This document shows, piece after piece, positions 44,201 through 47,200 of a stretch of 64,000 nucleotides of DNA (position 1 is its first letter; each line of letters begins with the position of its first letter). Source of the stretch: Hypomesus transpacificus (Eukaryota > Chordata > Actinopteri > Osmeriformes > Osmeridae); the NCBI RefSeq assembly GCF_021917145.1, contig NC_061068.1, forward strand, positions 7,632,404-7,696,403, written 5' to 3'. Both the position numbers and the translations under genes were made by a program. Under the pieces are notes generated by a model. That model did not search any database. It was not told where the DNA came from and saw nothing but the letters and a program-made list of their open reading frames with translations.

Positions 44201-47200
44201 AGCTTGGAACAACCAAGTTTGCTGCAAAGACCTCTGGTACCTTGAGACAGGTGAGAAAGTTCTAAATTACCATTCCAAAAGTGAAACCAATATTTTCTAC
44301 TGTTGTGGAGGTACAACAAAATGTCTATTCATAAAGATGTGGCAGTTCATTTCAGATGAGGAATTGAATGGAATTACGCATGTTAGATCATAAATCTAAG
44401 GATATGTGTATTCATTGTAATTTGGTAAAAAGAAAGCAACTACATTTCTGAAAAAACAATGCAAGTCTTGGATCCAATCGTTTGGACACAACCTACATTT
44501 TAAAAAGTTTCCCTGTGTATCACTCTTATTGAGGTTTACGTTCCTAGTCATTTTGTATGGAGTACCAGGCAGATGATAATTGACGATTGTATCATCATGC
44601 GTGTCGTGTTTCCAGAGAGGCCACACGCTCCAGCGAGGGTGCAGCTTGTTCGTGCCAACACCAACTCTCTGGAGGTCAGCTGGGGAGCACTATCCACAGC
44701 AGACACCTACCTGCTGCAGCTCCAGAAGTATGACATCCCGTCTGCTCCAGCTGCAACGTCACCAGCTCTGAGCGCCACCCCGTCCCTGCCAGGGAGCTCT
44801 CCCAGGAGTCCAGCCCCGGCCGCTGCTGCGCCGTCTGCCCAGAGCCTTCCACACGCAGGTATCACTCCCTCTGCCCAGAGCCTTCCACACGCAGGTATCA
44901 CTCCCTCTGCCCAGAGCCTTCCACACGCAGGTATCACTCCCTCTGCCCAGAGCCTTCCACACGCAGGTATCACTCTGTCTGCCCAGAGCCTTCCACACGC
45001 AGGTATCACTCCCTCTGCCCAGAGCCTTCCACACGCAGGTATCACTCCCTCTGCCCAGAGCCTTGCACACGCATGTATCACTCCCTCTGCCCAGAGACTT
45101 GCACACGCAGGTATCACTCCCTCTGCCCAGAGCCTTCCTTCTCATCAACATGTCAGGGAGCCATCTGCCTGCTTCCATAGCCGTTAATAATTGGAATTTC
45201 TGTTTTGCTCCTTTTGACCTTTAGTTAAAACAAATGTAACTGTGTAGATGGTGTGCAATTCCTAATAATTTGCTTTTGTATTTTTTATTACACAGCCATC
45301 TTGAAGGTTGCAGCTCCTCAGTCTTGCACTGGGGCATCTATTGTCACTGTGCGCCCAAATCAGGTTGGTAAATCGCCTGTCACTGTGACATCACTTCCTG
45401 CAGGAGTTCGCATGGTTATGCCTGCCCAAACCACCCAAGGAGCGGTATGAACAGCATTTACATTTTTATTCTGGTTTATCATTTAACGCCTTACACCTAT
45501 GCAGAATGTTGAAGTAAAACATATTTTTTTCTAGCCAATTGGCAGCAGCCCTCAGATGAGTGGCATGGCAGCGTTAGCTGCAGCTGCAGCAGCCACACAG
45601 AAGATCCCACCCTCATCACCAGGCACCATGCTCGGCCTACCAGCAGGTGCCACTATTGTCAAATCAGTGGCAGTCTCTCCTGGCTCAACCACAGTCAAAA
45701 TGGCATCTCCAGTCATGGTACGAGTTATCCCAAAAGAACATTGTGAGGGGAAACACTGAGATATAGATACGTGTGTGTGTGTAAATACTCATTTTAAGTG
45801 TGTTAAATGTTGTTTTCTGGCTCCAGGTGAGTAACCCAGCCACCCGTATGCTGAAGACTGCTGCAGCACAGGTGGGCACGTCCAGTGTGTCGTCTCCCAA
45901 CACATCCACACGACCCATCATCACTGTGCACAAGTCTGGCACCGTCACTGTGGCCCAGCAGGCTCAGGTGGTCACTACAGTGGTGGGAGGAGTCACCAAG
46001 ACCATCACCCTGGTCAAGAGCCCCCTGACCATGGGAAGCAGCGGGACACTGGTAAGATACTAACCCTGGAGGAAAGTTGTTGCCACTGAGTGAGGAATGC
46101 TGTGGGGGATGAATGCTTCAAGTTGTTGTTCCTTCGAGTCTGTTGATATGCATGCAAGGAATTCTGGGAACTGTATCAAATCTTGTTTTACACTTTGAGT
46201 TGGTGGAACTTTATCTTGCCTGTCATAGGACTCGTATGACATGCTCCATGCCAGAACCTCTTGATTAGAAGTGCTGAATCACAGTGGTGGTCAAAATGGT
46301 CCTTGTGACCGTAAGATAATGAACAGCATGTGTTCATAGGTCTCCATGACGTTAGGATCAGTTAGGTTTGGACTCGTGGAGAGCCTCAGCTTTACCTGTC
46401 ACCTTGACAAGCTGAAGTCCCAACTCCTAAACCTCCACTACTGTGTTTTCTGGTGACTCATAAACTTGAGTCTCTCTCCTATGTCAGCAGATCTCCAACC
46501 TTGGCAAGATGATGTCTGTGGTGCAAACCAAGCCAGTGCAGACATCAGCTGTTACAGGCCAGGTTTCCACTAACCCTCTCACACAAATCATACAGGTCAG
46601 CTATCTGCATGAGTGCCGGAAAAGGAGGTGGCTTAACTCCATAGACAGGAATCAGACGTCTTTTGCGTGATCCTTTTCATGATCCACCATGTCCTTTACC
46701 AGACAAAGGGTCCTCTCCCAGCTGGCACCATCCTGAAGCTGGTGACCTCAGCAGATGGCAAGCCCACCACCATCATCACCACCTCCCAGGCAGGCACAGG
46801 GAATAAACCAACCATTCTGAACATCAGTGGCATGTCACCAACCACAACCAAGCAGGGCACCACAATCATCAAGACCATCCCCATGTCGGCTATCATGAGC
46901 CAGCCTGGAGCCACAGGTTAGAGATGCACACAAACAGTTCAATAGCAATTGGGATGGGAGTGGCCTTAGCTGGCAGTTGTGTTGACTGGGCACTGGATGA
47001 TTTATTTTGTTAATAAAGATAAAACCAGACAACATCAGCATAACCGTAGCCTGTTGACTTGTGGCTTTCCTGACTTACAGGTGTGACGAGCAGTGCAGGA
47101 ATGAAAACGCCCATCACCATCCTCACCACCAAGATGATGACCACTGGCACTGCTGGCAAAATCATAACGGCCATGCCCAAGCTGGGATCTGCAGTCGGCC

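Follow-up and report, generated by a model that had tools for sequence, protein, structure and literature searches.

The hcfc1 locus and its neighbours

On its + strand the window, i.e. the complete 64-kb stretch of DNA that was analysed, carries an hcfc1 gene, whose limits were placed by eye near positions 41285 and 52500. The product of its exons 1-8 matched the PFAM family Kelch_HCF (PF13854) over residues 17-361 with an E-value of 1.1e-209, and the first 40 residues encoded by exon 8 matched the HCF N-terminal chain 4go6_A of the PDB (E-value 4.6e-17). Neighbouring genes were recognized on basis of their PFAM domains, namely zf-CXXC and PHD (7111-7395 and 7768-7989, - strand), Ras-family (55375-55686, - strand) and GATA (61062-61280, + strand). 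Furthermore, three tandem copies that are 95-96% alike were found around 5.5 kb apart at 20286-22405, 25871-27990 and 31396-33217, with spacer copies that are 91% alike, and the first of these (20286-22405) holds an opsin-like 7tm_1 coding sequence. We take these copies to be, probably, a triplicated long-wave opsin (a name given from synteny), and the zf-CXXC/PHD, Ras-family and GATA genes together with hcfc1 and the opsins presumably represent a familiar fish gene order, on which the assignment of this hcfc1 to a fish, probably a bony one, is based. A 16-bp minisatellite (TCCTGTCTCCTGCCTG, 17.7 copies) is present at 33868-34154, around 650 bp past the third opsin-like copy.

Exon 8 of hcfc1 starts at the acceptor TTTCCAG|AGAGGCC and covers 243 nt (44616-44858, + strand) up to the first of the donors described below. 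Its product contains an Fn3-like segment followed by a Ser/Pro/Ala-rich stretch. Exon 9 (45296-45444, + strand; AILKVAAPQ...) is entered in phase 1, and the junction thus requires one leftover codon base, as in TTACACAG|CC ATC TTG. Joining the first donor to exon 9 yielded an open frame of 1153 residues, made up of 18 exon segments. Two repeats were observed in later exons, namely four 16-residue repeats at around 49210-49575 and another 36-bp repeat of around two copies at 49801-49895. The former are presumably of the kind that OGT cleaves in human HCF-1; a PFAM search with the open frame that carries them gave no match. For the exon that begins at 50032, which precedes the exon at 50286, inspection of 50032-50285 by eye revealed no GT donor, and this may reflect a GC donor, a different exon end or a fault in the assembly.

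A 36-bp minisatellite across the probable end of exon 8

The 3' end of exon 8, as placed on basis of frame, phase, donor list and composition, is spanned by a 36-bp minisatellite at 44834-45138 (+ strand), which consists of eight full units plus 17 bp and encodes a 12-residue unit in frame. Tandem Repeats Finder assigned it 8.5 copies and a score of 568, with 96% matches and no indels, and therefore the array cannot be attributed to chance. A sequence-only reading of this DNA had located the array correctly at 44829..45146, although these ends lie 5 and 8 bases outside it. Outside the array, the best ungapped match to the unit within the window covered 24 of 36 bases and 32 matches reached at least 22 of 36, as raw counts over all rotations and both strands. 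A scan of a 99-residue peptide against prokaryotic contigs confirmed no relative, as expected for prokaryotes.

Five of the eight full units are identical to the consensus, and units 4, 7 and 8 each differ from it by two bases. The changes turn Pro into Leu in unit 4, Pro into Ala in units 7 and 8, Gly into Cys in unit 7 and Ser into Arg in unit 8, and none is silent. Given that every codon change alters the residue and that one of them destroys a donor, there is no sign of selection for either the repeats or the donors. The identity of five units would also fit a peculiarity of this assembly or allele, the usual allele having few copies, and tandem arrays are indeed often variable or misassembled. 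The three units with changes of their own argue against this explanation, which we consider very improbable, since they imply that an array of some length exists.

The reading frame that enters from exon 8 runs open through the entire array until a first stop at 45185, beyond which further stops follow. The sequence-only reading was thus right that the units are open in frame, but as evidence this is weak, considering that 15,646 of 20,000 shuffled units were open in a given frame as well. In the frame of hcfc1 the amino acid composition of the unit is HCF-like (log-odds +6.7, against -2.2 to -10.2 in the other five frames), where these log-odds, like those given below, are raw values and the background protein includes part of one unit. 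Immediately upstream of the array the sequence does not resemble the unit, with 1954 of 2000 shuffles aligning as well as the real stretch.

The 9-nt element CAG|GTATCA occurs in seven of the eight full units. More explicitly, CAGGTATCA was found on the + strand at 44856, 44892, 44928, 44964, 45000, 45036 and 45108, and a search of both strands of the window returned no further copy. The corresponding donors 1 to 6 occupy 44856-44864, 44892-44900, 44928-44936, 44964-44972, 45000-45008 and 45036-45044, with cuts after 44858, 44894, 44930, 44966, 45002 and 45038 that would leave 0, 1, 2, 3, 4 and 5 extra repeats, respectively. The last donor, in unit 8 (45108-45116), would be cut after 45110 and leave seven. 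Unit 7 (45050-45085) reads CATGTATCA, so that its donor is broken (CAT|GTATCA at 45072-45080, GT at 45074). All eight GTs at the donor position of the unit are in phase 1, which fits exon 9, as this begins with CC|ATC (45296). These data bear out the earlier proposal that the array multiplies a splice donor in the phase needed for exon 9, and that a period of 36 bp preserves both frame and donor, where it should be kept in mind that around one third of all repeat periods will be divisible by three by chance. The accompanying statement that every unit ends in CAG|GTATCA holds for seven units and overlooked the defect in unit 7. Because of this defect the predicted set of isoforms comprises 0-5 or 7 extra 12-residue repeats, and never 6.

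Where exon 8 ends

To judge the strength of the array donors, 24 donors and 24 acceptors of hcfc1 served as controls. They were chosen by eye among the open frames, and the two sets do not pair up exactly. For the exon that precedes 50286 no donor was found and none was entered, and the acceptor that follows the donor at 51388 was left out. Scoring made use of the 5' end of U1, of branch-point motifs and of a donor consensus matrix of the Shapiro-Senapathy type. By this matrix the score of the array donor, 69.8, lies below the median of 81.0 for the gene, and 3 of the 24 other donors were lower in log odds. It is about average in its predicted pairing with U1 (-7.2 kcal/mol, the median being -7.1 and 14 of the 24 others weaker), and also by a matrix derived from the gene itself (6.3, where the median is 6.1 and 13 of 24 are lower). 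Among the 3777 GTs that the window has on its + strand, 372 had log odds at least equal to those of the array donor. The sequence-only reading counted seven good donors; the count is correct, but 'good' overstates their consensus score, and it is fair to call them 'usable'.

Every GT from 44616 to 45259 was scored in the same way. The only open phase-1 GTs besides the seven are found at 44651 (42.5), 44807 (38.1), 45074 (the broken unit; 56.8, U1 pairing -1.3) and 45182 (53.1). Higher scores than that of the array donor were obtained for 44674 (GAG|GTCAGC, 83.8) and 45151 (CAT|GTCAGG, 74.3), which are both in phase 0, and for 45235 (72.4) and 45250 (74.7), which follow stops. Of the sites past the array, 45151 was rejected on account of its phase and 45182 (GCC|GTTAAT) on account of its score. 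No GC-type donor was recovered within 44800-45289 when filtering for G at -1, A or G at +3 and G at +5. The U12-type intron was considered as well, since GTATC begins both types of donor. The signals of this type are an RTATCC donor and a CCTTRAY branch site. As no GTATCC or ATATCC was found within 44601-45300 and no CCTTRAY within 45111-45295, the U12 type was rejected. Given that the other open phase-1 GTs score lower, exon 8 most likely ends inside the array, and on these sequence features it is very probable that at least one of the array donors is used to end it.

In an alternative reading, exon 8 includes the entire array and ends at the phase-1 site at 45182. This draws on the composition of the region. 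Upstream of the array, exon 8 has a GC content of 0.647. The value falls to 0.603 within the array, to 0.522 over the 46 bp that follow with the frame open (45139-45184, + strand) and to 0.279 after 45185, and the break at around 45184, from 0.52 to 0.28, adjoins the GT in question. The GC content of the 46-bp stretch is attained in 44 of 814 intron windows and in 469 of 634 windows from exons, and such an exon-like value past the array speaks for a junction beyond it. GIT-like residues, moreover, are presumably coding in human HCF-1. What argues against this alternative is the site itself, which at 53.1 and with a U1 pairing of +0.5 (i.e. none) falls below all 24 other donors (lowest 62.4), and the peptide encoded in frame by the post-array stretch, which is unlike HCF-1 (raw log-odds -9.4), although one of the two other frames reaches +3.6 (the second -1.1). 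It is on basis of this peptide that we expect coding to stop within the array, and we consider a donor at 45182 improbable. The post-array stretch is perhaps a decayed unit, since only 70 of 2000 shuffles of 45139-45200 aligned as well as the real sequence, but this is suggestive only.

The remainder of intron 8 (45185-45295, + strand) is AT-rich and ends in a strong acceptor. With a score of 14.2 the acceptor at 45295|45296 surpasses the best of the 24 hcfc1 acceptors scored by leave-one-out (11.7) and all 764 other AGs within 41000-52700, where its score is raised by the fact that it is itself part of the matrix. The branch point could be the CTAAT at 45262. Intron 8 would measure 437 nt from the first donor and 185 nt from the last.

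A further possibility is that introns are removed inside the array, from AGGT to AGGT and in frame. Seven of the eight full units carry an in-frame AGGT, and with a minimum intron of 70 nt there are 16 AG|GT-to-AG|GT combinations of 72-252 nt, all multiples of 36 and thus of three. PMC4974935 reports introns across duplicates in 24-bp AGGT arrays of fission yeast. The AGs of the AGGTs score 1.1-2.4, however, where the gene's own acceptors have a leave-one-out median of 6.7 and a minimum of 1.7, so that none or only one of 24 is lower. Acceptor-like CTCCCTCTGCCCAG|AG sequences recur eight times between 44879 and 45131, and the 21 combinations with an upstream array donor would remove 92-272 nt. 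These CTCTGCCCAG|AG sites are better (4.8-5.2; 7-8 of the 24 own acceptors lower), but the excised length of 20+36k nt leads to a frameshift. Besides, any product would still require a donor to reach exon 9. Excision within the array therefore seems very doubtful.

Choice among the donors

From the array, its seven donors, their phase and the weakness of the other phase-1 GTs, all of which are directly visible in the DNA, we infer which donors are used, an order of events, a mix of isoforms and an effect on the protein. A 36-bp segment holding the junction of exon 8 and intron 8 would have been duplicated in tandem up to around 8.5 copies. Each intact copy would bring the same phase-1 donor, resulting in seven possible ends of exon 8 that can all be joined to exon 9 in frame, and the Ser/Pro/Ala-rich stretch just after the first Fn3-like segment would gain a 12-residue repeat in 0-5 or 7 copies. 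With copies that are spaced at around one U1 snRNP footprint, several U1 particles might bind at once. Among such equal donors the last and intron-proximal one would be favoured, giving an exon of 495 nt and an intron of 185 nt, and the upstream donors would be minor or regulated. Taken as a whole, we hold this explanation to be slightly more probable than its negation. Its separate parts differ in strength: that two or more of the array donors are used at a detectable level appears moderately likely from the sequence, and for the last donor being the main one the chances are evenly balanced. An exon of 495 nt is long for an internal exon of a vertebrate, which would favour an upstream donor, and the low consensus strength of the array donors for hcfc1 counts against the explanation as well.

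PMC6002489 states that of two comparable 5' sites the intron-proximal one is favoured, for reasons that are not known, and it is on this preference that the use of mostly the last donor is expected. The same source cites protection by U1 of 23 nt upstream and 12 nt downstream. Given the spacing of 36 nt, neighbouring donors could just be bound by U1 together. A longer footprint, as is also noted there, could make U1 binding exclusive, and mutation of an upstream site at a distance of 33 nt led to more U1 at the downstream site, which hints at competition. In PMC5389562, duplicated 3' sites that were doubly occupied are described to splice poorly, and by analogy duplicated donors might do so too. 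Regulation of the choice between close donors is exemplified by DOK7, in which SRSF1 shifts it (PMC5585400).

The main alternative is that a single donor is used, probably the first or the last, and that the remaining units are inert, whether as intron or as coding sequence, the array being a neutral minisatellite that happens to lie over the junction. The codon changes among the units look neutral and thus agree with this. The predicted RNA fold of 44816-45200 is ordinary (z-score -0.60, equalled by 28 of 100 shuffles), so there is no special structure that could regulate the choice; a donor-hiding structure was rejected on the same grounds. The seven donors, on the other hand, share all nine bases and differ little in the sequence around them, and a strict single choice would therefore need an effect of position alone. 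We regard the use of one donor only as rather unlikely. Returning to the duplicated junction with alternative ends, a more far-reaching form of it, in which the ladder of seven equal donors, spaced at around one U1 footprint, yields a graded set of HCF-1 proteins (0-5 or 7 repeats) and changes of copy number in the germ line alter the range of isoforms of this central regulator of transcription, is put forward tentatively, as rather unlikely. If the explanation is true, the locus would show how a minisatellite that overlaps the edge of an exon can expand and leave the gene intact. With seven identical donors, six of them equally spaced, and one naturally broken unit, it would also lend itself to studying the influence of donor position, with all outcomes in frame.

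Relation to known systems

Within the hcfc1 literature, judged by titles and the start of abstracts, we found no report of such a donor array. The sequence QPLTQVGIT of the human protein, to which the unit had been related, was likewise encountered in no paper that we found, and the matched chain 4go6_A ends before that place.

Outside hcfc1, the human interferon gene 6-16/IFI6 has a minisatellite with a unit of around 12 bp. This minisatellite is said to supply multiple splice donors, as Turri et al. reportedly described in 1995. That study is cited in PMC4526556, PMC2572611, PMC3618361 and PMC2915984, and according to the first of these, two downstream repeat units of IFI6 act as donors, which leads to three mRNA species. 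Common to both genes is a minisatellite with units that act, or in hcfc1 would act, as splice donors. The gene and the unit are different, and several donors are reported to be used in IFI6, whereas for hcfc1 their use is only predicted. De Grassi and Ciccarelli (2009; PMC2812944) described variable internal tandem repeats of human genes in segmental duplications, which are minisatellites with a mean unit length of 30 bp and are located at exon-intron boundaries. Most of the intron changes in that set also have transcripts that retain the repeat in the exon, and the variety within one family was ascribed to copy-number polymorphism and not to splicing. Those arrays resemble that of hcfc1 in their position at an exon-intron boundary, but they concern recent human paralogs with transcript evidence and 'novel introns', whereas here a single gene with an existing intron is known from its sequence. 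Intron gain by tandem duplication of AGGT, as retold in PMC4974935 (the Rogers model, ATP2A1 and the fission yeast arrays), shares with hcfc1 a tandem, in-frame segment that contains AGGT; the difference is that hcfc1 has a strong acceptor outside the array and weak AGGT acceptors inside it. The anatomy of the hcfc1 array is thus of a type already on record, in IFI6/6-16 and in the boundary arrays of PMC2812944. To our knowledge, it differs from the known cases in that the other phase-1 donors of exon 8 are all weak and in that its spacing is near the footprint of U1.
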